Below, piece by piece: positions 4,032 to 14,757 of a stretch of DNA of 32,248 bases. Numbering within the stretch: the stretch's first letter is position 1; the number at the start of each line of letters is the position of its first letter. Position numbers and translations under genes: made by a program. The notes below the pieces were generated by a model that did not search any database, had not been told where the DNA came from, and saw only the letters and a list, made by a program, of their open reading frames with translations. Source of the stretch: Oscillospiraceae bacterium. Its GTDB lineage: Bacteria > Bacillota > Clostridia > Oscillospirales > Acutalibacteraceae. The stretch is from positions 1 through 32,248 of the forward strand of contig SVPE01000021.1 in NCBI GenBank assembly GCA_015066015.1, given 5' to 3'.

Positions 4032-4568
4032 TTATTCAGATATGTTTCTTTCTTCGTCCTGCTCAAGAATTGCTTCATAGTCGGCAAGAATAATGTTAAT
4101 AAGGTCTGTAAGCTCCTCATACATGTCTATTCCCTCAACACCTTCACCGTATTCAAAAGTGCTTCTTGCATATTCAATATCAAGTGTATCAATCCCTCTG
4201 TAATGGAAGTAATACTGACACCACATAGCAAGCTTTTCAATATCAATGTTTTCGATGTTGTGTTCTTCACTATCGAGTACTTCATATTCCGCATAATTGA
4301 TTACTACATCTGCACCATCAAGGAAGCTTATAAACTTTAGAGTGGCAGCTTTCCAGTCAACAGACTCTTCACCGCAAATTACACAGCGGTCAATCGTTTC
4401 CACCTTGTTGTCCCTAAGGACAGTCTTTCCTAAAGTATAGTACCATTGGTCATTAATGTAGCTTGCGGCATATACACCTACAACCTTTCCGTCCTTATAA
4501 AGCTCCTTAAGCTCCTGACAGGATTTGTAAAATTCTCTTTCTTCGGGTTTTGCAATCGGAATTAACAT
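4032..4568 (-). CDS. Acidic protein of unknown function (178 aa)
   Basis: I do not recognise a family. The protein is acidic, especially in its C-terminal third (DYEAILEQDEERNISE), with one CxxC pair (CVICGEE, about residues 62-68), too little for a confident zinc site. Many aromatic and acidic residues around YFHYRGIDTLDIEYARSTFE suggest a folded alpha/beta protein. No membrane segment or signal peptide. The ATG at 4568 has GAAGGAAAG upstream. It is a single-gene unit with its own copy of the element's repeated promoter module about 80 bases upstream and a terminator behind. Confidence 0.65.
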   Translation of the reverse strand: MLIPIAKPEEREFYKSCQELKELYKDGKVVGVYAASYINDQWYYTLGKTVLRDNKVETIDRCVICGEESVDWKAATLKFISFLDGADVVINYAEYEVLDSEEHNIENIDIEKLAMWCQYYFHYRGIDTLDIEYARSTFEYGEGVEGIDMYEELTDLINIILADYEAILEQDEERNISE

Positions 4569-4640: not shown

Positions 4641-4690
4641 TTCATTTTAAGTATGTAAGATTTATTTAAAAAAATGAAAAAAATTAAAAA
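4641..4690 (-). promoter_or_regulatory. Repeated promoter module, copy A (short form)
   Basis: Minus strand reads TTTTTCATTTTTTT, 6 bases, then ATCTTACATACTTAAAAT. It shares the T-tract and the ATCTTACATAC core with copies B-E but lacks about 11 bp (one helical turn) of the spacer and has TTAAAAT in place of TATTAT. It lies upstream of the 4568-4032 gene. Confidence 0.5.
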
Positions 4691-4705
4691 CGCCTGTTTT
4701 ATAGT

Positions 4706-4751
4706 AAAAATAAACAATCCCTCTGAACAGCTTGGCGCCATTCAGAGGGAT
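4706..4751 (-). terminator. Terminator of the 5310-4763 gene pair
   Basis: ATCCCTCTGAA (4717-4727) pairs with TTCAGAGGGAT (4741-4751), an 11-bp stem with a 13-base loop containing GGCGCC. On the minus strand it is followed by TGTTTATTTTT. Confidence 0.8.
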
Positions 4752-4762
4752 GTTCGTTTCTG

Positions 4763-5029
4763 TCAGTTAATCACCTTATTGTGTTCCCAGACAGAGTTAC
4801 AATAGTCCTCATCCATTATGAGATCAATGCATTCCTGGTGCACCTTAGGAATGTCTACAGTTTTACTGTACACGGAACCGAGTACGAGCTTAACCTTTTC
4901 CTCATGATCCATAAGGATTACATAAGCCTGCATACCTCCGTTTTCGACTGTCTGAGTTTCAATTGCTGCGAGATATTCTCTGTCGTCAAAGGCTATAATT
5001 TCAGCCTGGTGAATGTGGATTACGTTCAT
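4763..5029 (-). CDS. Small protein, paralogue of its upstream partner (88 aa)
   Basis: Unrecognised 88-residue protein. Its C-terminus, ECIDLIMDEDYCNSVWEHNK, lines up residue for residue with that of the upstream gene product (DIYEILADEDKCYKLWNEGK): both share DEDxCxxxWxxxK. The start overlaps the end of the upstream frame by 4 bases, with AAGGAGG inside that frame, so translation is coupled. No membrane segment. The two are probably diverged duplicates acting together, perhaps as a heterodimer; function unknown. Confidence 0.65.
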   Translation of the reverse strand: MNVIHIHQAEIIAFDDREYLAAIETQTVENGGMQAYVILMDHEEKVKLVLGSVYSKTVDIPKVHQECIDLIMDEDYCNSVWEHNKVIN

Positions 5030-5310
5030 TGGTTTTGTTCCTCCTTAAAATTCTTTCCTTCATTCCATAATTTGTAGCATTTGTCTTCGTCTGCAAGGAT
5101 TTCGTAAATATCTGCAAAATCCTCCATTGTAATCAATCCCTTGGTGCGTCTTGAGTAAACTCTGACTTCGGGATTTTCCGCTTCGCTTTTATACTTGTAC
5201 AAGCTCAGATCGATTCTGTTGATTCCTGTTCCCGACCTTGTTCTGATAAAAGCTGTTATTCCGTTGCTTAAAAGCAACTCCTCAGTGGTTAATCTTCCCT
5301 GAAATTTCAT
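5026..5310 (-). CDS. Small protein, first of a paralogous pair (94 aa)
   Basis: Unrecognised 94-residue protein with an N-terminal beta-rich, basic half (FIRTRSGTGINRIDLSLYKY) and a C-terminal helix ending in DEDKCYKLWNEGK, matched in the next gene. AAAGGAG lies about 11 bases before the ATG. It is the first gene after copy B of the repeated promoter module; its leader contains a CAGAAAC/GTTTCTG stem. It is co-transcribed with and overlaps the downstream paralogue. Confidence 0.65.
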   Translation of the reverse strand: MKFQGRLTTEELLLSNGITAFIRTRSGTGINRIDLSLYKYKSEAENPEVRVYSRRTKGLITMEDFADIYEILADEDKCYKLWNEGKNFKEEQNQ

Positions 5311-5381
5311 GTTGTTTTAAATCTCCTTTATTTGTATTTTTTCTGACAGAAACATCATACTCCATTCGTATTTTTGTTTCT

Positions 5382-5430
5382 GATAATAGTATGTAAGATG
5401 AGGTGACACAATAACTTGAAAAATGAAAAA
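5382..5430 (-). promoter_or_regulatory. Repeated promoter module, copy B
   Basis: Minus strand: TTTTTCATTTTTC, 18 bases, then ATCTTACATACTATTAT. In this copy TTGTGT stands 17 bp before TATTAT, a fair sigma-A promoter, which supports reading the whole module as a promoter. It drives the 5310/5029 pair. Its T-tract begins about 7 bases after the nested hairpin at 5438-5493. Confidence 0.6.
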
Positions 5431-5437
5431 CCTCGAA

Positions 5438-5493
5438 TTAGTCGGTTATTCCTTTAGTTATTCACGAATAACTGCTACAGGAATAACCGCTAA
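5438..5493. repeat. Nested inverted repeat upstream of the primase gene (candidate origin or operator)
   Basis: Outer arms CGGTTATTCC (5443-5452) and GGAATAACCG (5480-5489) are extended by TTAG/CTAA with one bulged base. Inside are inner arms AGTTATTC (5456-5463) and GAATAACT (5466-5473) with only 2 bases between. GTTATTC thus occurs four times, two in each orientation. It lies 74 bp before the primase start. It could be an iteron-like origin bound by the replication protein, an autoregulatory operator, or a leader hairpin. Confidence 0.6.
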
Positions 5494-5566
5494 TTTTAAA
5501 AATTCCGTTTTTCCCAAACAAATCTTTCATACTTATTTCAAACAAAAATAAAAGGAGATGTTAAAC

Positions 5567-7279
5567 ATGGGAAAAACGAAAAATACAGTTCCCCAATACG
5601 TATTCAATTTTGGTCAGTCACTTGACAAACACTCTCTTCGGGAAGAGGTAAAGGAACTGATTGAAAAAGGTACCTTTGACAGTAAATCCCTACTGTATGA
5701 GTATCTTCAGGAAATTGTACCCTATGCCGGAGAAAAGCATTACATTTATGTTGTCAATGATAACGGAACATTTGTAAATATACCTTTCAGTCGTGAGGGA
5801 TATATAAATGCTCTTTGTTGCCTTTCTCAATATGAGCTTACCTTATTTATGCATCCTGCATCATTTTCAAACTGGGTTACAGAAAATGATTGCAGAGCCG
5901 CAAGATGCATAATAATTGATATTGACGATATAAATATGTATGCCGATATAACCGACAAGGACACCGCTGTGAGCTTTATAAAAGAAACATATAGCCTTGA
6001 GGATTGGCAGCTTCCAAAATGGATCTCGCTATCCGGAAGAGGGATTCACTTAATATATCCCATAGATGAAATGTATTTCTGGGATCCGACCAAAACCGTG
6101 AAGATAAAATCTGATAAGAACAGTAAGCCCTTAAAGGCATCCTGTCCGCATCGCAGTAAATGCTCTGATGCCAAAGCTTGTACTGACGAAAATGTTTGCA
6201 TTAACCGTCTTATCTACAAAAAATACAACGCCTGTTTAATCCTAAAATTCGATGCCGATTTCAGCGGCAACAACATAAATCATATGTTCCGCAATCCAAC
6301 CAGCTATAACCTTAAGGAGCGTCCCATCAAGGGTAAGCTGTTCAAGGTAAATGAAAATGACAGCACCGATATTCACAGACTCGACTGGGCACTGAGAACA
6401 GATGAAGAGATTCTCGAATACAGACGATCATATTACAAGCGATGTTATGAGAAGAGCCTTATCACCAAAGCGAAAAATGCTCAGCGTAAGCAGGAGTTTC
6501 TTTATTCGTTGGGCGATATGACTCTTGAGGATTTTCTGAAGCAGGATAATATATCCCACGAAGACAGAGTCCTTGCAGAAAAGCTCCTTGAAAAGCAACG
6601 GGAGAAGGAAAAGAAAAGCAAAAAGCCAAAGAAGGATAAAAAGAAAAAGACATCTGCTAAGGCTATAACCGAGGCAGATATTGATGATATATTTGAAAAC
6701 ACGGCTCTGCCCTACAAAAAGCTGAAATACCGCACCAACTTCAAGCCTGAAAACAGATACTGGAATCTTCTGCTTGACCTTCATAACTATCTGATTAGGC
6801 ATAAGGGTATGGTACCCTCAAGAAATTTCTTCTTTTTTGTAATAGCCAACTATCTTAAGAAGCTTGGACATCCCGACTATTATGCTGTCAAATACTGCAG
6901 ACAATACTGTGACAAGTCATATTACAAGGAAATGAAGCAGACCGTTCTTGCTACCTACAAGAATGAAGTTACATATAATTTCACCTATGAATATCTCGCC
7001 TTTGCCCTCGCCTTCAGCGAAGAGGATATCAGAGTCAGCTATTGCAATTTCTCAAAGGAGAGAAAGATGGAAGCCAAGCGTAAGAACAATCAGAAGCAGT
7101 ATGCAAAGACTCTCGAAAAGAAGGGTAAGCTTTCCTTCAAGGAAAAGAGGGCTTTTCAGCTACAGTTCTTAAAAGATAATCCCGACATAACCGATAAGGA
7201 AGCGATGCTTAACCTCGGCATTGGCAGAACAACCTTTTACACATTAAAAAATGAACTGAAAGCAGCTACCACAATTTAA
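5567..7279 (+). CDS. Primase-like (AEP-type) replication protein
   Basis: The 570-residue protein carries features of archaeo-eukaryotic-primase-type plasmid replication proteins: IIIDIDDI (about residues 115-122, catalytic Asp-x-Asp), SGRGIHLIYPI (about 156-166, the sxH-type motif) and MFRNPTSYN (about 240-248). A Cys/His cluster between them, CPHRSKC...C...C (about 193-211), could bind zinc. A Lys-rich linker (about 345-365) leads to a C-terminal region ending in a helix-turn-helix-like segment (DKEAMLNLGIGRTTFYTLKNEL). GGAG overlaps the ATG at 5558, so the ATG at 5567 is the likely start. It probably primes or initiates replication of the excised element. Confidence 0.7.
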   Translation: MGKTKNTVPQYVFNFGQSLDKHSLREEVKELIEKGTFDSKSLLYEYLQEIVPYAGEKHYIYVVNDNGTFVNIPFSREGYINALCCLSQYELTLFMHPASFSNWVTENDCRAARCIIIDIDDINMYADITDKDTAVSFIKETYSLEDWQLPKWISLSGRGIHLIYPIDEMYFWDPTKTVKIKSDKNSKPLKASCPHRSKCSDAKACTDENVCINRLIYKKYNACLILKFDADFSGNNINHMFRNPTSYNLKERPIKGKLFKVNENDSTDIHRLDWALRTDEEILEYRRSYYKRCYEKSLITKAKNAQRKQEFLYSLGDMTLEDFLKQDNISHEDRVLAEKLLEKQREKEKKSKKPKKDKKKKTSAKAITEADIDDIFENTALPYKKLKYRTNFKPENRYWNLLLDLHNYLIRHKGMVPSRNFFFFVIANYLKKLGHPDYYAVKYCRQYCDKSYYKEMKQTVLATYKNEVTYNFTYEYLAFALAFSEEDIRVSYCNFSKERKMEAKRKNNQKQYAKTLEKKGKLSFKEKRAFQLQFLKDNPDITDKEAMLNLGIGRTTFYTLKNELKAATTI

Positions 7280-7298
7280 CGGTAGCTATTTTCAGTTC
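7253..7298 (+). terminator. Long hairpin across the primase stop codon
   Basis: GAACTGAAA (7253-7261) and AGCTACC (7264-7270) pair with GGTAGCT (7281-7287) and TTTCAGTTC (7290-7298): 16 bp with a 2x2 internal loop and a 10-base loop that contains the stop codon. TATTTT lies within the 3' arm rather than after it, so termination is uncertain; it could also stabilise the mRNA 3' end. Confidence 0.5.
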
Positions 7299-7511
7299 AA
7301 AAAATTCAGCTTACTATAGCGTGCTATACGCTACAAATTTAGAAGAAGATATCTCTGCGGAGGTTTGAAATTATGTTTTTGTGTTGATTTTATATACTGA
7401 AATGTATTTACAATGAATCCCTTATTGATACAATAGTGTCGGAAAAGGTATTGTTAATTTTATAGCTATATGTTAAACTAGCTATAATTCACATAGAAGA
7501 GGTGATTAATT

Positions 7512-8528
7512 ATGAAATTATTTGACGATTTTGAGGTTGTAAAATTCCCCGAAGAGAATATGCTCTTTGTAACTCATAACGGCTATCTTTATTATTTTTA
7601 CAAATCCGGTCACAAATATTGGGAAAGATATAGCAATGCCGGAAATGACCATATTACAACTGAAAATTATCAGGATGTTTCCGCAGAAGAACTGACCGTT
7701 GCTACGCAAGGTGTATTCCCTCAGAAGGAAACTGATTTTTTAAGATTATGCGATCCCTCACAGTTAAGAGGCTATCATCTGTTATGTCTTCTAAAAGAAG
7801 ATTATGTTGATTATATGTCTGATTATACTACCTATCATACAGCCAGAATTTTTATAGCCGAATCAGACATACCTTATAAATCATATGAGCGATTAAAAAT
7901 TCTTTTGGATAATGCAGTCGCAAATCACACGGACAATCAGCAACTTATAAATGAAATTAAAGCGCTTTCATTCGATATAATAGGAAGAGATATTTACAAG
8001 GAAGAGATAGGCATAGTAGACGGTCACGATTCCACATCATACTTCTGGATTATGCCTGTAAGAGTAATCGATTATTCAAACACAAACGAAATTGATAACG
8101 TTGCAGAAATGCGAAGCGCAGAGATTTCGATTGAGGAAAATGATGTTGACCAGTACCTTATACCATTTCTTCACAAATATTATGACGATGAGCTTGAAGC
8201 AAACAAAAGCCGATTAGAATATCATTGGGTTGACGACAATGGTGAAGAACATTCAAAATATATAAGTGGCTTTGAATGGTGGCTTACATATAATTTTTTC
8301 ACCTTCGATTCAATTACAGCAATGTTAAGAGATATCACTGATACGATTGATGCCTTAACTAACGGAAGAGAAACAGAATACACCCAAAAGTTGAAAGCCA
8401 AAGGTGTCAACGATAGCGAAACAGAACTCATTATTGATTTTTACCAACGTTTCATCTACCGTATGGAATATATGATGAAGGTTGGTAAAGAAAGAGGCTA
8501 TAACTTAATATCCTTTATGGGTCCATGA
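7512..8528 (+). CDS. Protein of unknown function (338 aa)
   Basis: I do not recognise a family. The protein is soluble-looking and rich in Asp, Glu and Tyr, with an N-terminal beta-rich segment (YLYYFYKSGHKYWERY), a middle helical region, and an aromatic C-terminal part (FEWWLTYNFFTFDS, then ITAMLRDITDTIDALTNG) ending NLISFMGP. GAGGTGA lies 7 bases before the ATG. Upstream are a possible promoter (TTGTTA, 17 bp, TAAACT) and an ATAGCT/AGCTAT inverted repeat. It is followed 66 bp later by the DUF3791-like gene, with a terminator after that, so the two likely form one unit. Confidence 0.7.
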   Translation: MKLFDDFEVVKFPEENMLFVTHNGYLYYFYKSGHKYWERYSNAGNDHITTENYQDVSAEELTVATQGVFPQKETDFLRLCDPSQLRGYHLLCLLKEDYVDYMSDYTTYHTARIFIAESDIPYKSYERLKILLDNAVANHTDNQQLINEIKALSFDIIGRDIYKEEIGIVDGHDSTSYFWIMPVRVIDYSNTNEIDNVAEMRSAEISIEENDVDQYLIPFLHKYYDDELEANKSRLEYHWVDDNGEEHSKYISGFEWWLTYNFFTFDSITAMLRDITDTIDALTNGRETEYTQKLKAKGVNDSETELIIDFYQRFIYRMEYMMKVGKERGYNLISFMGP

Positions 8529-8594
8529 AAAATGATGCAAACGGATAAATATAACATATGTCATACTTAATTTAACGAAAGACAGGTGACTTAT

Positions 8595-8798
8595 ATGAGC
8601 AGAGAAATGCAATTCTTTATGTTTCTGATAGAACGTTACGCAGAATACAAAAACACCACCGCAGGAGATATTCTTACCCTTTGGGATGATCTTGATATTA
8701 CCAACAGAATTTATAATCTTTATAATCTGTACAGCACCGAAGCGATAGAAAATGCTTTTGCTGATATTGACAGAATGACAGAAGAAGCACAGAAGTAA
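8595..8798 (+). CDS. DUF3791-like small protein (67 aa)
   Basis: The sequence MSREMQFFMFLIERYAEYKN...DILTLWDDLDITNRIYNLY...ENAFADIDRM resembles the DUF3791 family: a short helical protein with an N-terminal FFxFLxExYA block and a C-terminal ENAFxDID block. DUF3791 proteins often accompany DUF3990-type partners on mobile elements; none is visible here. AGGTGA six bases upstream supports the ATG at 8595 rather than the in-frame GTG at 8586, which overlaps that site. A strong terminator follows at once. Confidence 0.65.
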   Translation: MSREMQFFMFLIERYAEYKNTTAGDILTLWDDLDITNRIYNLYNLYSTEAIENAFADIDRMTEEAQK

Positions 8799-8803
8799 AC
8801 TCT

Positions 8804-8835
8804 ACTACCGGGAATATCCCCGGTAGTATTTTTTT
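8804..8835 (+). terminator. Terminator after the DUF3791-like gene
   Basis: ACTACCGGG (8804-8812) pairs with CCCGGTAGT (8819-8827), 9 bp with a 6-base loop, followed by ATTTTTTT. It lies 3 bp from the end of the convergent recombinase gene. Confidence 0.9.
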
Positions 8836-8837
8836 AC

Positions 8838-9791
8838 TTAAACAATGATGTAATTTTCGTATGCCACGTTTAAGCGATAGTGTGAGAGTCGAAAAACACT
8901 GGTGCTTAATAACGCTAGTCTGTTCACTTTAATCGGTCTTCCATTCTGAAGTGCCCTTCGTCTTGTGCTTCCCCTTGCAATATACCAGCCTTCAAGATTT
9001 TTAGGGTTAAGATATTTAGGCTTACCCGTTCTTTTATCTATGTTATATTTATTCCAACGCCTGATTATTTCCTCTCTTAACTGCTCCTCATAACCGGGCT
9101 CATTGAGAATTCTCTCAAGCTGTGCCTCATAATATTTCTGTGCTGACCTTGCTCTAAGCAGATGAAGATTAAGGTCGTTATCAAGTTCCTTTTCCGTGAA
9201 TATAGGTTCATCGGGTGCTTTGTTCTCAAAGTAAGGCTTAACGATTTTAAAGTCCTCATCACTCAATCGCTGATATTGAAGCTTTCTCCCCTTACCTACC
9301 ACCCTTAAGCAAGGATACCCGGATTCGTCATAAGTAAGTGAGCTACCTCGAAGAGATTTAAGTTCTGCTCTTCTGAGACCTGCTGCCATCTGAAAATCAA
9401 CAAGCCTTTTATATGTAACATCATTAAGATCCTGATTCACACGATTAAGCACATTCAGCCTGCCTCTTGTAAATTCTCCTGTGCGACGTATCGGCTTGTC
9501 AATTTCTGACATCGGCAAATTATAGGTGGAACATATAGAAGCGATATAGGTATGAATGGTGCTGGCCGTGTAGCCTTGCTCCTGAAGATAATTGCAATAA
9601 TCCTGTATATGCTCCTTACAGGAGTCAAAATCTCTGCAGTCATATTTTTCTCTGCAGAACTTAATAAACCGCTTGGTGTTCCTTATATAATTCTTTCTTG
9701 AAAGGTCATGAGGTGTTTTTTCATTCTGAATCGATATTACCTCAGCCATAATCTTATTTGTGACGCTCTGACGGCGTTTTTTCTTTGCCAT
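8838..9791 (-). CDS. Divergent tyrosine recombinase/integrase
   Basis: The 317-residue protein has an N-terminal SAM-like core-binding domain (about residues 28-95) and a divergent catalytic domain. The expected residues can be placed: AGLRRAEL (Arg140/141), GKGRK (Lys about 168-170), HLLR (His210, Arg213), and SHYRLNVAYENYI with His304 and Tyr314 ten residues apart, as in ordinary tyrosine recombinases. An extra segment of about 80 residues between HxxR and the final His-Tyr is unusual. GAGGAGGGG supports the start. It lies convergent to the DUF3791 unit and has a long leader (9792-10034). It may be the element's second recombinase or a relic of another insertion. Confidence 0.8.
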   Translation of the reverse strand: MAKKKRRQSVTNKIMAEVISIQNEKTPHDLSRKNYIRNTKRFIKFCREKYDCRDFDSCKEHIQDYCNYLQEQGYTASTIHTYIASICSTYNLPMSEIDKPIRRTGEFTRGRLNVLNRVNQDLNDVTYKRLVDFQMAAGLRRAELKSLRGSSLTYDESGYPCLRVVGKGRKLQYQRLSDEDFKIVKPYFENKAPDEPIFTEKELDNDLNLHLLRARSAQKYYEAQLERILNEPGYEEQLREEIIRRWNKYNIDKRTGKPKYLNPKNLEGWYIARGSTRRRALQNGRPIKVNRLALLSTSVFRLSHYRLNVAYENYIIV

Positions 9792-10034
9792 ATTGTTCCC
9801 CTCCTCTTTAAAATAATATAGCTAAACTGTCAAAGGCTGCTATTTCCTGATGCGTTTGCATCGCCCAGCTGGCAGACATCACAGGGTGACAATCCTGCGA
9901 TCGTCGGGGTTTCCTTTTCTTTCAACGCCGAATGCGTTTATGCTGTTACTGTTATCTTCCTCATTAGTTTTATCCTTTCCTCTTAGTTTCTTTTCTTAAT
10001 ATTAATATGTAATTTCACAAAGGCTGATAAACGG
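9792..10034 (-). other. Leader region upstream of the divergent recombinase (no intact gene)
   Basis: No convincing intact gene. On the minus strand a reading frame starts at 9964 behind GAGGAAAGG, reads MRKITVTA, stops at 9938, then stays open as THSALKEKETPTIAG...CQLGDANASGNSSL to 9830, ending 38 bases before the recombinase start. Small hairpins (GATGC/GCATC, CAGG/CCTG) occur in the same stretch. It may be a broken small gene, a leader peptide with attenuation, or a recombinase recognition region. ATTACATATTAATATT near 10000 weakly resembles the repeated promoter core. Confidence 0.4.
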
Positions 10035-10064
10035 AAAAAGAGCCCTCCCGAAGGAGAGCTCTTT
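10035..10064 (-). terminator. Terminator of small RNA 1
   Basis: Eleven paired bases with one mismatch around a CGAA (UUCG on the minus strand) tetraloop; five T's follow on the minus strand, only three on the plus strand. Confidence 0.75.
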
Positions 10065-10150
10065 CTTCAAATTGACGTAGGAGTTAATTATTTAGTTCAA
10101 CAAAAGATAAAAGGTAGTTCAAATCAATTATGAGCACCAATCGTGTTGTC
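10035..10150 (-). ncRNA. Putative small RNA 1 (about 116 nt)
   Basis: Promoter module copy C ends in TATTAT (10162-10157), giving a start near 10150. A minus-strand terminator closes the unit: AAAGAGC/GCTCTTT and CTCC/GGAG around a UUCG loop, followed by TTTTT (10039-10035). The unit matches the one at 13847-13963 in length, order and several blocks: CATAATYGA, GAACTMCTTTTATC, AACTCC and the terminator arms. The CU-rich centre could pair with Shine-Dalgarno sequences. No open frame of note lies on the minus strand. Alternatively it is only an attenuated leader for the recombinase 240 bases further on. Confidence 0.5.
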
Positions 10151-10155
10151 ATCTT

Positions 10156-10203
10156 AATAATAGTATGAAAGATGGGAACTATAGATAATCGAAAAAATGA
10201 AAA
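10156..10203 (-). promoter_or_regulatory. Repeated promoter module, copy C
   Basis: Minus strand: TTTTCATTTTTTC, 17 bases, then ATCTTTCATACTATTAT. The core differs from the consensus at one base. It drives the 116-nt small RNA and possibly, by read-through, the recombinase. Confidence 0.55.
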
Positions 10204-10294
10204 TTACGAGGTTGTAACTTTACATTATAAATATATATAAAACAAAAGTCTACACATATATTGTAAATAATTTGTAAACAATAGCGAGAAACAC
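10204..10294. other. AT-rich spacer without visible feature
   Basis: Very AT-rich stretch (TAAATATATATAAAAC-like) between the small-RNA promoter and the structured-RNA promoter. I see no gene here. TTGTAAAT/TTGTAAAC near 10260-10280 is a weak direct repeat. Confidence 0.4.
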
Positions 10295-10322
10295 TTGATT
10301 TTTAGAAAATTATGGGTATAAT
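10295..10322 (+). promoter_or_regulatory. Promoter of the structured RNA
   Basis: TTGATT (10295-10300), 16-bp spacer, TATAAT (10317-10322); start predicted near 10329. Confidence 0.7.
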
Positions 10323-10328
10323 GCTAGT

Positions 10329-10565
10329 ATAGGACAAGTCCACAGTTGGGATCCGGAGCCCAACCTTCCTTAAGGAATCAAAATTGAATAGAGTGTCAGG
10401 AAGAGAAAATCTTACCTTCTCCCCTCCCGACACCACAATGAGGACCAAGGGATGACGATCCCTTGAACACATGCTGAACTACTCGTTCACCAGCAGACCT
10501 GAGCTTACGAAGCTTACCTCCCCTGAAGAGAATAACTCTTCAGGGGGGAGTAAGCTTCTTTTTTT
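10329..10565 (+). ncRNA. Structured non-coding RNA upstream of xis/int, class unassigned
   Basis: A good promoter at one end and a strong terminator at the other bound about 237 nt with no open frame but dense secondary structure: GTTGGG/CCCAAC (10345-10364); GTGTC/GACAC closing an arm with GGA/TCC and GAGAA/TTCTC (10393-10433); CAAGGGAT/ATCCCTTG with a GACG loop (10446-10465); a weaker CTGAAC/GTTC-CAG arm; and the terminator. Part of the terminator's 5' arm (GCTTAC) is present twice in a row, so an alternative pairing is possible, as in an attenuator. It is no 6S RNA, tmRNA, RNase P or T-box that I can recognise. It may regulate xis/int or act in trans. Confidence 0.6.
10509..10565 (+). terminator. 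Very long terminator hairpin of the structured RNA
   Basis: Left arm 10509-10530 and right arm 10536-10558 pair over about 22 bp with one bulge and an AATAA loop, followed by seven T's. Stem begins GAAGCTTAC and ends CCTGAAGAG. Confidence 0.9.
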
Positions 10566-10760
10566 GTCCCCAAAAATCAAGCTCAACAAAAAATACAAAG
10601 CTCAGATTCGTTGTGATATGCTTTAATCACAACAGAGGGATCCCCACAAAAAAACAAATTATCACACTAACTGAACTTACATATTATTAATACAGGAATC
10701 ACGACAGGAGAAAACTCTGCAGCCTGAACAAAACAATAATAAAGAAAGGAGAAAAGAATA
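10566..10760 (+). other. Leader upstream of xis
   Basis: No gene seen. It contains one hairpin, GTTGTGAT/ATCACAAC (about 10610-10633), and ends in AAAGGAGAAAAGAATA before the xis start. No sigma-A promoter stands out, so xis may depend on read-through of the strong terminator just upstream or on a weak promoter here. Confidence 0.4.
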
Positions 10761-10961
10761 ATGGAGAAAACAGTACCCACCTGGAAGAAGTACACACTTT
10801 CGGTTGAAGAGGCTTCCGATTACTTCAACATCGGAGTAAACAAAATCCGAGCACTCATCAGCGAAAACGAAGACGCTGATTACATCCTCTGGAAGAACAG
10901 CCGTCCAAGCATCAAGCGAATCAAGTTTGAGCATTACATCGACAGCATCAATGTAATTTAA
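10761..10961 (+). CDS. xis: Excisionase, Tn916 Xis-like
   Basis: This 66-residue protein has the form of Tn916-type Xis: W-K-K-Y-T-L-S-V-E-E-A-S-D-Y-F-N-I-G near the N-terminus (winged-helix DNA-binding segment), then NKIRALISENEDADYI and a basic end SIKRIKFEHYIDSINVI. It binds near the element ends and directs the integrase towards excision. AAGGAG lies 8-9 bases before the ATG. It is directly upstream of int with an 8-bp hairpin between them, the usual xis-int order. Confidence 0.9.
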   Translation: MEKTVPTWKKYTLSVEEASDYFNIGVNKIRALISENEDADYILWKNSRPSIKRIKFEHYIDSINVI

Positions 10962-10974
10962 GTAATAACAAACG

Positions 10975-11002
10975 CTGCAGTGTCTCACCGAAGGCACTGC
11001 AG
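10975..11002 (+). promoter_or_regulatory. Hairpin between xis and int
   Basis: CTGCAGTG (10975-10982) pairs with CACTGCAG (10995-11002), with a 12-base loop. No T-run follows, so it is more likely a processing or stability element adjusting Int relative to Xis than a terminator. Confidence 0.5.
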
Positions 11003-11044
11003 ACGATAAAGATAAAACAAAAAATCAGAAAGGAACCATTAATA

Positions 11045-12328
11045 ATGAAAGATAACACAAATACAACAAATGTAACAAGAAGAAGCGACAAGGACATAAA
11101 GGGCAGAAAGCTCACAAAGGGTGAATCTCAGAGAGCCGACGGTAGATATGAATACAGATACACCGATTCAAACGGTGTAAGACACAGTGTTTACAGCTGG
11201 AAGCTCTATCCCACTGATCCCGCACCAAAGGGAAAGAAGAAGGGTCTTTCATTGAAGGAGCTTGAAAATCAGATTAAGAAGGACAAAATTGACGGTATAA
11301 CAGCAACAAACATTACCGTTGACGACCTCTGGTATAAATTCCTCATCTCAAAAAGCAAGCTGAGGGACTCAACCCGAAACGGTTATATCTACACATATAA
11401 CAAGTACATCAAGCCGAAGTTCGGAAATGTAAAGATAACCGATGTGAAATACAGTAACATCCTTTCCTTCTACAATTACCTGCTTGTTGAGGTAGGAATG
11501 GAGGTAACCACCATTCAGATAGTTCAGAACATACTTCATCCGATGTTCAACATCGCTGTGAAGGATCAGATTATAAGACTGAACCCGACAACAGATGCGA
11601 TGAAGGAGCTCAAAAAGACCTGCAATTACGAAAAGAAAAAGATCCACGCTCTTTCACAGGAGGAGCAGGATGCATTCTTTGACTATGTCAGCAAATCAGA
11701 TACATACAGACACTGGCTTGACCTTTTCATCGTGATGATAGGCACAGGCTGCAGAATAGGCGAAATCCTCGGACTCAGATTCAAGGATATCAATTTCAGC
11801 AAAAACATGATCAGCATCAACCACTCCCTCGGCTACAGGCCCCAGGAGGACGGAACGTGTCAGCACAGAATTTCAACGCCGAAAACAAAAAGCGGAACAA
11901 GAGAAATTCCGATGCTCCCCGAAGTACGAGAGGCTCTCATCCGAGCAAAGGAAGAACAGAAGAAAAACGGCAGATGCAAGAGCGTCGTGGACGGATATTC
12001 GGGCTTTGTATTTATGAACAGAGACCGAAACGTATTGATGGTCGCAAGTGTAAACAAGGCCATCGGGAGAATAGTAAACGAATATAACAGTAAAGCATTA
12101 TCCGACAAATCAATAAAGGATCCCACTATCCTACCCCACTTCTCGGCGCACTGTATGCGTCACACATTCTGCACAAGACTCTTCGAAAAGACACAGGACT
12201 TCAAAGCAATACAGGAATTGATGGGTCACGCTGACGTACAGACAACAATGAACATCTACGATGAGGTGTTCCCGAACAGAAAAAATACGGCAATCACAAA
12301 TCTTGCCGGAATGATAAAAATTAATTAA
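11045..12328 (+). CDS. int: Tyrosine integrase, Tn916 family
   Basis: The 427-residue protein has an N-terminal arm-binding region of Tn916 Int type (about residues 20-60, RADGRYEYRYTDSNGVRHSV), a core-binding domain (about 90-185) and a complete catalytic domain: Arg237 in GTGCRIGE, the Lys-containing hairpin STPKTKSGTREIP (about 277-289), His369 and Arg372 in HCMRH, His395 in MGHADVQ and nucleophile Tyr405 in NIYDEVF. It should carry out integration and, with Xis, excision. It reads towards the predicted right end at lysS. The start at 11045 has AAAGGAA upstream. The only integrase here with all canonical motifs. Confidence 0.95.
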   Translation: MKDNTNTTNVTRRSDKDIKGRKLTKGESQRADGRYEYRYTDSNGVRHSVYSWKLYPTDPAPKGKKKGLSLKELENQIKKDKIDGITATNITVDDLWYKFLISKSKLRDSTRNGYIYTYNKYIKPKFGNVKITDVKYSNILSFYNYLLVEVGMEVTTIQIVQNILHPMFNIAVKDQIIRLNPTTDAMKELKKTCNYEKKKIHALSQEEQDAFFDYVSKSDTYRHWLDLFIVMIGTGCRIGEILGLRFKDINFSKNMISINHSLGYRPQEDGTCQHRISTPKTKSGTREIPMLPEVREALIRAKEEQKKNGRCKSVVDGYSGFVFMNRDRNVLMVASVNKAIGRIVNEYNSKALSDKSIKDPTILPHFSAHCMRHTFCTRLFEKTQDFKAIQELMGHADVQTTMNIYDEVFPNRKNTAITNLAGMIKIN

Positions 12329-12348
12329 TAGAAACGAGGTACAAAACA

Positions 12349-12708
12349 ATGATCAAAAACAGTAAAAATCAAAACGAAACGGATGTAATCTTCGAGGGAC
12401 TCAGGACCCTCGAAGCCATCCTCAGCACAGTAAAGGATGCGGTAAAGATAATCAAGCAATATGAGAACAAAGCTCTCAGACTGAGTCTCAAAAATTACAA
12501 CGCAATTAAAAACAACCTTTACTTTATGACCATGTCTTACAACAAGATATGTGATGACACCGAGAAGCTTGCTAGGGTTCTTATGGTCATCGGGGAAATC
12601 CCTGAAAAGAAATTCAAGGCAGCAATAGAAATGGTTGATACCAAAAGACAAGCTTATCTGGCCTTCAAAAGAAGTCAGCCTGATTACATAAAAAAATTAA
12701 TGGCTTAA
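12349..12708 (+). CDS. Helical protein of unknown function (119 aa)
   Basis: Unrecognised. It is predicted mostly helical: EGLRTLEAILSTVKDAVKIIKQYENKALRLSLKNY, then a run ending in AYLAFKRSQPDYIKKLMA. It is mildly basic, unlike the two acidic proteins downstream. It starts 20 bases after int with GAGGT upstream, so it is probably co-transcribed with int. No membrane segment. A small DNA- or protein-binding accessory factor is possible but unsupported. Confidence 0.65.
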   Translation: MIKNSKNQNETDVIFEGLRTLEAILSTVKDAVKIIKQYENKALRLSLKNYNAIKNNLYFMTMSYNKICDDTEKLARVLMVIGEIPEKKFKAAIEMVDTKRQAYLAFKRSQPDYIKKLMA

Positions 12709-12769
12709 AGCAGAAAGGAAAATCAATATAAAAAATACAAATAATAACAAAAAAATCGAGGTAAAAATT

Positions 12770-13186
12770 ATGTGCAACCCAAATGATGTCTTCAACGAAG
12801 AAAACAATACGAAAGAAGAAGTAGCTGAGATCAATGGAAACGAAACACTTAATTTAGATGAAATGCTTGAGGAAATTGAAGAATTTGCTGAGGAAACGGC
12901 TTTTTACTCACATTTTGCTATAGCGAAAAAAATATATGCAGATGAAGAAGCGAGGAACGAATTCAGTCAGGTCGTGGCAAACTCATATTATGCAGTTGAA
13001 GAATATTTAGATGAGTACAAGGGACTCAGCTCTTGTATATATGCTTGTCTGCAAATTGCCGAAGCACCTGAAGATGTGTTCAGCGATTATCTTGACAGAT
13101 TGAAAGCAATTAAAAATAACCTTATAAAATCAAAAGAAATGCTTGCCTTTATGGCTGACGAAATGGAGGTAGAATTAAATGTATAA
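12770..13186 (+). CDS. Strongly acidic protein (138 aa)
   Basis: No family recognised. I count 33 Asp/Glu against 10 Lys/Arg, net about -23. The N-terminus (DVFNEENNTKEEVAE...LDEMLEEIEEFAEETAF) is an acidic helix; the rest looks helical with several Tyr and Ala. It shares an FNEEN start motif with the next protein, which it overlaps by 8 bases. Charge, size and location beside the integrase would fit a DNA-mimic such as an anti-restriction protein, but this is inference without a homologue. Confidence 0.65.
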   Translation: MCNPNDVFNEENNTKEEVAEINGNETLNLDEMLEEIEEFAEETAFYSHFAIAKKIYADEEARNEFSQVVANSYYAVEEYLDEYKGLSSCIYACLQIAEAPEDVFSDYLDRLKAIKNNLIKSKEMLAFMADEMEVELNV

Positions 13187-13808
13187 TTTAAAAGAAATAT
13201 TCAACGAAGAAAATTTTGATGCAGGTGATCTTACAGTTCTTATTCACTCCGCTATGCATATATATGAAGGCGAAACCCGTTTCAACAGATACATCTGGGT
13301 TTCACTTGATACACTTGAGGCAGAAAAAGGTGCACGGGAAATAAAAGAATTTGAAGGACTTGAAAACGGATTTATTGTTGAAATTACAGAGAAACCCGAA
13401 GAAGACATCTGGGATTGTGTTCTTCGAAGCTTCGTGGAATATTTCAACGAAAACTTTGATCTGGATTTCAAATATGACGAATGGTATGAACCGTTTGTTG
13501 AAGAAAACGACGAAGAAGCTTTTACAGATTGGCAATTATATACTGTGTTTAAAACCTGTCATGATATATGCTTGGAAAACAGATACAAAGAAGAACCTTA
13601 CTACATAATGATTGATATGGAAAACTACAAAGCCGTAAAAGCAGTAAAAGAACCAGAACCCACAGATGACAGATATGTATTCGTTCCTGTTGAACCTTTA
13701 GAAGAACACGGCCTGACAGATATTTACGACAACTGTGCTGATGCACTTATGAATTATTTTAACACCGAATTTGAAATGTATATGGTTTATGATTTCGAAA
13801 TTTATTAA
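13179..13808 (+). CDS. Very acidic protein (209 aa), possible DNA mimic
   Basis: No family recognised. I count 53 Asp/Glu against 16 Lys/Arg (net about -37), with many aromatics spaced through the chain (EYFNENFDLDFKYDEWYEPF). ArdA-type anti-restriction proteins, which imitate bent DNA, have similar charge but are nearer 165-170 residues and I see no clear ArdA signature. The start overlaps the preceding gene by 8 bases (ATGTATAA), with GGAGGT inside it, so the pair is coupled. It is the last gene of the xis-int unit, which ends at the terminator at 13847-13877. Confidence 0.65.
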   Translation: MYNLKEIFNEENFDAGDLTVLIHSAMHIYEGETRFNRYIWVSLDTLEAEKGAREIKEFEGLENGFIVEITEKPEEDIWDCVLRSFVEYFNENFDLDFKYDEWYEPFVEENDEEAFTDWQLYTVFKTCHDICLENRYKEEPYYIMIDMENYKAVKAVKEPEPTDDRYVFVPVEPLEEHGLTDIYDNCADALMNYFNTEFEMYMVYDFEIY

Positions 13809-13846
13809 TAAGCAAACATTCTCAAATTCATCTGATACACAAACAG

Positions 13847-13877
13847 AAAAAGAGCTCTCATAACGAGGGCTCTTTTT
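13847..13877. terminator. Bidirectional terminator of the int unit and small RNA 2
   Basis: AAAAAGAGCTCTC (13847-13859) pairs with GAGGGCTCTTTTT (13865-13877), 13 bp with one G-T pair and a 5-base loop. T-runs lie on both strands. Arms nearly match those of the small RNA 1 terminator. Confidence 0.85.
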
Positions 13878-13963
13878 CACTGATTGGAGTTCTTTGATTA
13901 AAACACTAAAGAAAAAAGGATAAAAGGAGTTCGATTATGACCATTTCTCCGGACGTGGTATAC
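13847..13963 (-). ncRNA. Putative small RNA 2 (about 117 nt), paralogue of small RNA 1
   Basis: Promoter module copy D ends in TATTAT (13975-13970), giving a start near 13963. The unit ends at the shared terminator. The minus strand carries CATAATCGAACTCCTTTTAT and then a long CU-rich run, complementary to AAAAGGAG-type ribosome sites. No protein gene lies on this strand. The plus strand of the same stretch has a possible 32-codon frame behind AAAAGGAG (13937-14035), so orientation is not proven; the promoter and terminator favour the minus strand. Confidence 0.5.
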
Positions 13964-13967
13964 GTCT

Positions 13968-14018
13968 CAATAATAGTATGTAAGACGGCAACACATAATA
14001 ATCGGAAAAATGAAAAAC
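13968..14018 (-). promoter_or_regulatory. Repeated promoter module, copy D
   Basis: Minus strand: TTTTTCATTTTTC, 18 bases, then GTCTTACATACTATTAT. The T-tract doubles as the U-tract of the terminator of the upstream SSB-like gene. Confidence 0.55.
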
Positions 14019-14045
14019 AGAACACGGAGTGGTGAACTCCGTGTT
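14012..14045 (-). terminator. Terminator of the SSB-like gene
   Basis: AACACGGAGT (14021-14030) pairs with ACTCCGTGTT (14036-14045), a perfect 10-bp stem with a 5-base loop; CTGTTTTTC follows on the minus strand. Confidence 0.85.
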
Positions 14046-14084
14046 CGAAAGAAAAAAGAAAGGATGTTAATATGTCTTATAACC

Positions 14085-14636
14085 TTAATCATTCCGTGGA
14101 AAATCCGCCACATAATTCTGATGGTAAACACGCTTTCCGTTACCATAATCCTTGCATACAGTCTGGATTTTTCCCGAAATTGCTATTGTGGGGTTATCGG
14201 TTACTATTGCAAAAAGTCGGTGATCGGGGTTATAAAAAACCACAGGAATGGTAGAGATTCTGCCGTTCACACGTGTCCGTATTATCATAGTACTTACATT
14301 GCGCTCTGTGTCGGTACGTGTGGATACAACATCTCCTGCAAGGTAAAAGCGGTTAACATTTTCTGTTCTTGAATAATTCTTTCTGATACTGTCGCAAAAA
14401 ACGGTCACCGTTCTTCCGATTTTCGACTTAACCGATGACTGAAGGTTTGCATTGACTGTAACGGTATCACCGATTCTAAGGTTCTGAATTATGTATTCCG
14501 CCTGCATCCCCGCTGCGAAAATCTTTGGGTTGTCTCCGTTTGCCGAAACTGTTACAATCACTCTGGCAGGATTCCGTGAGATCTCATATATGTGTATGAT
14601 TTTCCCGGTAATTATTGCTTTGTTTGTGTCATTCAT
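14085..14636 (-). CDS. OB-fold, single-stranded-DNA-binding-like protein
   Basis: The 183-residue protein looks like two OB-fold-type halves. The second half, FYLAGDVVSTRTDTERNVST...IPVVFYNP...IAISGKIQTVCKDYGNGKRVYHQNYVADF, follows the SSB order: strand, variable loop, strand, hydrophobic strand, then G-x-I and YxQNYVA near the end. There is no acidic SSB tail. A single-strand-binding protein would fit with the primase-like protein in replication of the element, but similarity is judged by pattern only. AAAGGAG lies 6 bases before the ATG. Single-gene unit between promoter copy E and its own terminator. Confidence 0.55.
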   Translation of the reverse strand: MNDTNKAIITGKIIHIYEISRNPARVIVTVSANGDNPKIFAAGMQAEYIIQNLRIGDTVTVNANLQSSVKSKIGRTVTVFCDSIRKNYSRTENVNRFYLAGDVVSTRTDTERNVSTMIIRTRVNGRISTIPVVFYNPDHRLFAIVTDNPTIAISGKIQTVCKDYGNGKRVYHQNYVADFPRND

Positions 14637-14710
14637 TATAGTCTCCTTTTTCGTTTTATTATCTATGTTATAAGGTCTTGCTGATGCTCCGGAGCGTCTT
14701 AAGCCTTTCG

Positions 14711-14757
14711 ATAATAATATGTAAGATGGGTATAGGAGATAATTGAAAAAGTAAAAA
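14711..14757 (-). promoter_or_regulatory. Repeated promoter module, copy E
   Basis: Minus strand: TTTTTACTTTTTC, 17 bases, then ATCTTACATATTATTAT. It lies about 75 bases before the SSB-like gene; the T-tract directly follows the terminator of the DUF4926 gene. Confidence 0.55.

Follow-up and report, generated by a model that had tools for sequence, protein, structure and literature searches.

Contig SVPE01000021.1 of an Oscillospiraceae bacterium (assembly GCA_015066015.1), a stretch of 32,248 nucleotides referred to here as the window, carries an element with Tn916-type xis and int genes (10761..12328, + strand) and seven copies of a short promoter-like module, A to G, that recurs elsewhere in the same genome. 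The products of xis and int match PF09035 (expectation value, E, 3.8e-22), PF02920 (E 1.2e-24) and PF00589, which groups them with Xis and Int of Tn916. No Tn916 conjugation module was recognised among the 20 window proteins submitted to Pfam.

Copies of the module in the window

A preliminary description of this DNA had listed five copies of the module, A to E, all on the minus strand. A search of the window with ATCTTACATACTATTAT at up to three mismatches returned six matches against 0.20 expected, a number that none of 100 shuffles reached. These are copies B, C, D and E, a further copy, F (10674, + strand), and a match at 2568, dismissed as chance with a score of just 9.8 from the matrix of the set. 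The five listed copies are indeed present, although copy A is divergent: it has in common only ATCTTACATACT, the first twelve bases of ATCTTACATACTATTAT, its hexamer is TACTTA in place of TACTAT or TATTAT, and its T-tract lies about 10 bp nearer the core. The restriction to the minus strand does not hold, since F, before xis, and G (5522), before a gene for a 573-residue protein, lie on the plus strand; both had been missed.

The sites fall into two layouts, class 1 and class 2, which are defined below. Site A (4648..4690, − strand, class 2) is made up of T-runs, ATCTTACA and TACTTA, and precedes a gene for a 178-residue protein (4032-4568). Site B (5386..5430, − strand, class 1), with TTTTTCATTTTTC, TTATTG, a 17-bp gap and TACTAT, precedes genes for proteins of 94 and 88 residues (5310-4763). 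Divergent from it, site G (5508..5535, + strand, class 2) reads TTTTTCCCAAACAA ATCTTTCA TACTTA, with 22 nt from the hexamer to the start codon, at 5558, of the 573-residue protein (5558..7279, + strand). This protein has no Pfam match at E 0.001 and no NCBIfam match at E 0.1, and matches one PHROG of unknown function (E 0.022); we read it only tentatively, from sequence motifs, as primase-like. Between B and G, just before this gene, a large nested palindrome with four GTTATTC-type repeats was seen by eye (5440-5488) and could be an origin or an operator.

Site F (10645..10687, + strand, class 1), upstream of xis (10761), has an A-tract for the T-tract, followed by TTATCA, 17 bp and TATTAT, with the core AACTTACA. 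Sites C (10160..10203) and D (13973..14017), both class 1 and on the minus strand, precede RNA-like units, and site E (14714..14757, − strand, class 1) precedes a gene for a 183-residue protein (14085..14636, − strand). The latter is OB/SSB-like by weak similarity only, its matches being RecG in NCBIfam (E 0.011) and a single-strand DNA-binding protein in PHROG (E 0.031). As had been described, copies precede both protein genes (A, B, E) and RNA-like units (C, D), and the T-tracts of D and E overlap the preceding terminators: that of D is the U-tract of the stem at 14046-14020, and that of E continues the terminator at 14783-14754.

Seventeen sites in two layouts

The copies had been read as an element-wide regulon. 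The set exists, but it is not confined to the element: a motif scan of the host genome, proposed with restriction to such elements in mind, revealed sites outside the element of the window. Copies occur at three other places in the own genome, which we call accessory islands with putative mobility, and at one locus in a genome of the same genus, G004. In all, 17 sites were aligned, seven from the window, seven from the three other places and three from G004. Five of those in the own genome, H to L, came from genome searches, and the divergent partners I′ and K′ were seen on the strand opposite I and K, before DUF6809 genes.

Sites H (contig C2, 193203) and J (contig C28, 22042) precede genes for 63-residue proteins, while I (C2, 193837), K (C28, 22667) and L (C2, 168691) precede RNA-like units. 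All five are class 2, and I′ and K′ are class 1. The three G004 sites lie inside about 160 bp. There g1 (class 2) precedes a short terminator-ended unit, g2 (class 2) precedes a gene for a 62-residue protein with 42.9% and 37.7% identity to the 63-residue proteins behind J and H, and the divergent g3 (class 1) precedes a gene whose product is 30% identical (E 6e-18) to the 183-residue window protein behind E. The same type of promoter-like site is thus found before the 183-residue protein gene and before its G004 homologue.

With the hexamer numbered −12 to −7, C−18, T−17, T−16, C−14, A−13, T−12 and T−9, and also T−32, are invariant in all 17 sites, an invariance that is partly built in for the core because the sites were collected partly by means of it; this does not apply to the layouts, the neighbouring genes or the occurrence at homologous places. 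A−11 is present in 16 sites and T−7 in only 12. The mark of the family is a box, WCTTWCA, that abuts a poor −10 hexamer, which matches TAnTWW in 16/17 sites (the exception is I′, TTATAT). The earlier proposal of TATTAT as the −10-like element needs a shift in register: the hexamer common to all aligned sites sits three bases further upstream. In this register TTRT is exactly 17 bp away in all eight class-1 sites.

The layouts are mutually exclusive. In class 1 (n=8; B, C, D, E, F, I′, K′, g3) TTRT precedes the hexamer by exactly 17 bp in 8/8 sites. Class 2 (n=9; A, G, H, I, J, K, L, g1, g2) has it there in 0/9 and carries T-runs instead, which start at −41 to −43 and at −32 to −34; A has an extra run at −49, and the runs of G are at −48 and −34. 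The T-tracts of four class-1 sites have runs at −51/−50 and −44/−43, about one helical turn further up, and the remaining four class-1 sites carry an A-tract. In the pairs I/I′, K/K′ and g1/g3 a single tract lies between the two divergent sites.

As had been claimed, more is conserved than a sigma-A promoter requires, and the sites are not of the extended −10 type: position −15 is A or T, and −14 is C in 17/17 sites, where TG would be expected. TTRT at 17 bp is present in 8/17 sites overall, and a consensus promoter scan listed only F among the seven window sites. The class-1 sites, mostly RATTR, 18 bases and CATAYTA, bring to mind a sporulation sigma factor of the sigma-G or sigma-E type, and they resemble the sigma-G consensus, although papers retrieved for the consensus strings did not contain these strings. 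This explanation is very unlikely, since the box is carried mostly by island sites: genome-wide searches gave mostly such sites, while host spore genes would be expected to be marked. Also, the CTT upstream of CATA is invariant here and is not known as part of the sigma-G consensus.

A repressor operator that overlaps the promoter and keeps the island silent until induction would explain why the box overlaps both the spacer and the −10, and half-palindromes of the form GTAA-ATC-TTAC were seen by eye in some sites (I, K, L). Repressors usually bind palindromes, and their operators are less tied to one position, whereas the box is asymmetric in most sites and its register with the −10 is fixed; partial dyads occur, by eye, in only a minority of the 17 aligned sites. 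Because of this asymmetry we consider a repressor unlikely. Sites of recombination or replication, such as iterons or attachment-like repeats, are also very unlikely. They would suit an element in which seven sites accompany recombinase and primase-like genes, but all 17 sites point into a close gene start or a terminator-ended unit and have a −10-like hexamer. A promoter is by far the best reading, given that the sites are oriented towards genes, have this hexamer and, in class 1, keep an exact spacing of 17 bp.

Specificity, conservation and RNA-like units

Within the own genome a relaxed two-part pattern gave 14 matches against none for a reversed control; the 10 that are listed fall on seven sites (A, B, C, E, H, I, L), while the four unlisted ones fit J and K. 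Allowing one mismatch, ATCTTACATAYTAT gave 13 matches against two for its reversed control. Ten of these are sites of the set, and three, on contigs C1, C11 and C16, were rejected for want of a fitting −10 with T-runs before a gene. A position weight matrix of the 17 cores, applied to 11 long stretches, scored 17.1 or more only at sites of the set, the best other place reaching 15.1.

The strict motif had no match in viral contigs and one in a collection of genome contigs, in a Chryseobacterium stretch, which we take as chance. The first pattern, run on 147 genomes, found the own genome and one short-spaced site in genome G061; its reversed control also matched one genome (G041), and the G061 site was likewise attributed to chance. 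Around Int relatives of 40-50% identity (16 loci with flanks of up to 1.5 kb) there was no core-pattern match with fewer than two mismatches, and in the two-mismatch matches (loci L052-L054), which were discarded, the CTT is broken. Relatives of the 573-residue protein were found only in the own genome among 250 family genomes, and none in plasmids, phages or viral contigs; in the last three collections no relative of the 183-residue protein was found either. The 63-residue family has no member in viral contigs and, among 150 family genomes, whose list does not include G004, was found in the own genome only. DUF6809 was considered as the owner of the motif and rejected, as it is widespread (133/295 genomes) and 30 fetched loci yielded six weak core matches, none with T-runs or TTRT and a −10. 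At least 17 DUF6809 matches occur in G004, the most of any genome in that comparison.

Contigs C2 and C28 carry what can be treated as copies of one cassette, which allows each module to be compared with its flanks. Between H and J the module is identical at 34/36 nucleotides (94%), the coding region at 129/204 (63%) and the upstream flank at 59/113 (52%). Between I and K the module is identical at 33/36 (92%) and the neighbouring DUF6809 coding region at 180/301 (60%), and the RNA-like units are 82% identical over their first 45 nt and 45% over the remainder. The comparison flags short RNA-like units whose promoters are better kept than their flanks. Among 329 genomes, a seed made from the I and K RNAs was found in the own genome only.

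Units C (10036..10154) and D (13846..13967), both on the minus strand and about 120 nt long, end in a hairpin and a U-run, and their starts are placed by the −10. They are putative short RNAs, their transcription being predicted, and a global alignment of 130 and 135 bases gives 64% identity between them. A terminator-type hairpin close to the 3′ end is present in the folds of units C, D, I, K, L and g1. The two window units carry ACTCC/CTCC stretches, for which pairing with ribosome-binding sites is possible. In an exploratory, uncorrected target test of 30 pairs (two RNAs and 15 gene starts), four fell below z −3: D with the 178-residue gene (−4.6, the lowest), and C with the genes for a 138-residue protein (−3.9), the 178-residue protein (−3.5) and the 573-residue protein (−3.3). 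Pairing of the CTCCTTTTAT stretch of unit D with the ribosome-binding site of the 573-residue gene fits by eye and was left unsupported by this test (z +0.4). At the gathering score Rfam recognised nothing in the window, and only T-box elements in four other stretches; five sub-threshold matches near unit C and the xis leader were ignored.

Upstream of xis-int a highly structured stretch of 243 nt (10328-10570, + strand; minimum free energy −95.7 kcal/mol, z −7.7 against 200 shuffles) is flanked by a promoter-like site, TTGATT-16-TATAAT, and a strong terminator-like hairpin. It belongs to no Rfam family at the gathering score, was not found in plasmids and is absent from the fetched Int relatives by blastn. 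The window also encodes a second tyrosine-recombinase-like protein of 317 residues (8838-9791, − strand), which has an unusual C-terminus and scores 22.1 for Phage_integrase against a Pfam cut-off of 27.1. To the left of the sites are genes for a C-5 cytosine methylase and an adjoining small Cro-type helix-turn-helix (HTH) protein (500-1661, − strand).

In the other islands, J-K and L lie near genes of toxin-antitoxin appearance, HipA-like for the former and DUF6036/AbiEii-like for the latter, where the pair near L consists of an HTH gene and a DUF6036/AbiEii-like gene. Genes for HipA-like kinases lie near the 63- and 62-residue modules in C28 (locus L041, 15603-16976) and in G004 (locus L152, 14497-15540), their products being 30% identical over 275 aligned positions. 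Beside the G004 62-residue gene and its sites there is, by appearance, an IS256-type transposase gene (L152, 9012-10166).

A probable promoter family and its possible reader

What we observe is a sequence family in two layouts, placed before genes and RNA-like units, rare, and present at homologous genes in G004. We consider it probable, judging from sequence, that the module is a promoter and that its copies make up a small regulon, spread over mobile or accessory islands, with a single dedicated factor as its reader. RNA polymerase would start a few bases after the poor −10 hexamer, TAnTWW, and the factor, acting in trans, would read CTTWCA-TAnT and recruit or redirect the polymerase. On the upstream side, the first layout would offer TTRT as the −35, exactly 17 bp away and directly preceded by the tract, and the second would offer T-runs near −42 and −34 and no such hexamer. 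The regulon would turn on the primase-like gene, xis-int, the gene for the weakly SSB-like protein, small proteins and short terminator-ended RNAs. Transcription starts, positive control and RNA action are predicted here, as is the factor itself. CTTWCATAnT forms an unbroken block that hardly varies, whereas there are two versions of the −35 side, and a dedicated reader of the −10 side would fit this pattern. At H and J the core is followed very closely by a ribosome-binding site, so that transcription there would begin just behind the hexamer; the same closeness argues against ATCTTACA as a −35.

Several results weigh against this proposal. In the other 394 genomes the relaxed pattern had nine matches in six genomes, compared with eight in eight for the reversed control. 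As matches elsewhere are thus not above control and G004 is anchored by homologous genes, only the G004 sites were counted outside the own genome, and matches in genomes G029, G155, G240, G246 and G488 were set aside. A looser pattern gave 28 matches in the own genome, 15 of them at ten sites of the set and 13 elsewhere against six for the control; these 13 were viewed and lack a fitting −10 with T-runs before a gene. Site I′ has a matrix score of only 13.1, no better than background. How a single simple reader would account for class-2 sites, which keep the core yet have no normal −35, is not obvious. Finally, no shared regulator emerged when proteins were compared among six stretches and between the window and the fetched loci; the one exception is the small window HTH protein (1455-1661), which is similar to the HTH portion of the HipA-like protein of C28 (45% over 47 residues).

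Two kinds of reader come into question with much the same likelihood, an activator and an alternative sigma factor, and each is put forward tentatively. In the former case sigma-A would act with an activator that binds the CTTWCA box, the T-runs or both, and the 10-bp shift of the T-tract would correspond to one helical turn. The T-runs at about −51/−44 in four long sites and about −42/−34 in most short ones agree with this arrangement, as does the canonical 17-bp spacer of class 1. It is less easily reconciled with an invariant block that enters the −10, where activators seldom bind, and protein comparisons of the stretches and fetched loci showed no conserved regulator gene next to the sites. 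In the latter case CTTWCATAnT would be the −10 of an alternative sigma factor, perhaps borne by a mobile element, and the T-rich stretch a weak −35. T−9 in 17/17 sites and T−7 in 12/17 is the opposite of the sigma-A pattern, and T−32, present in 17/17, means that one −35 could serve both layouts. Against such a factor, two layouts one helical turn apart are easier for an activator, and Pfam recognised no sigma family among the 20 window proteins submitted to it, the whole genome not having been searched for one.

Comparable arrangements are known. The streptococcal cia-dependent small RNAs (csRNAs) are several short RNAs under one common promoter motif, and in Tn916-like and ICEBs1-like control regions a single control switches replication and excision genes jointly. 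The present set is similar to the csRNAs in its short RNA-like units, its single promoter motif and the CTCC-containing stretches of units C and D, but the motif differs from the CiaR repeat and the targets are predicted only. Joint control of replication-like and excision genes, putative here, would be shared with Tn916-like and ICEBs1-like elements; unlike in those, the sites reach other places in the genome, and no element repressor was recognised.

Mobile elements of Clostridium difficile 630, mainly of the Tn916, Tn1549 or Tn5397 family, carry eight potential sigma factors, according to one report (PMC7438776), which provides a precedent for an element-borne sigma factor; the same report states that no promoter consensus has yet been identified for them. 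The module would similarly represent a class of promoters belonging to elements whose recombinases are of Tn916 type, but it also occurs outside the Tn916-type element, and no such sigma gene is tied to the sites. The report also gives the extended −10 of sigma-A as TGNTATAAT (PMC7438776). Like promoters of this kind, the sites have a conserved stretch immediately before the −10 and a −35 that is weak or missing, and they differ from them in having CTTWCA rather than TG, an invariant T−9 and a presence at only a few loci. In the portions accessible to us, the literature searched, by the setting of the motif and not by its letters, contains no description of the motif and does not name DUF6809.

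A wider proposal, less likely than not, is that a previously undescribed specificity factor of mobile islands, whether sigma-like or an activator that works against the −10, recognises CTTWCATAnT and controls several islands of one cell in trans, and so couples the primase-like, excision and SSB-like genes of one element to the small RNAs and proteins of others. If this were true, the sites would amount to the first promoter consensus for an island factor of this type. The exact core, the two layouts and the defined targets provide a handle for finding a mobile-element sigma factor, and the interest of the set would be higher if the controller proved to be an island-borne factor of this kind. 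The motif would also let islands in one cell be recognised as wired together.

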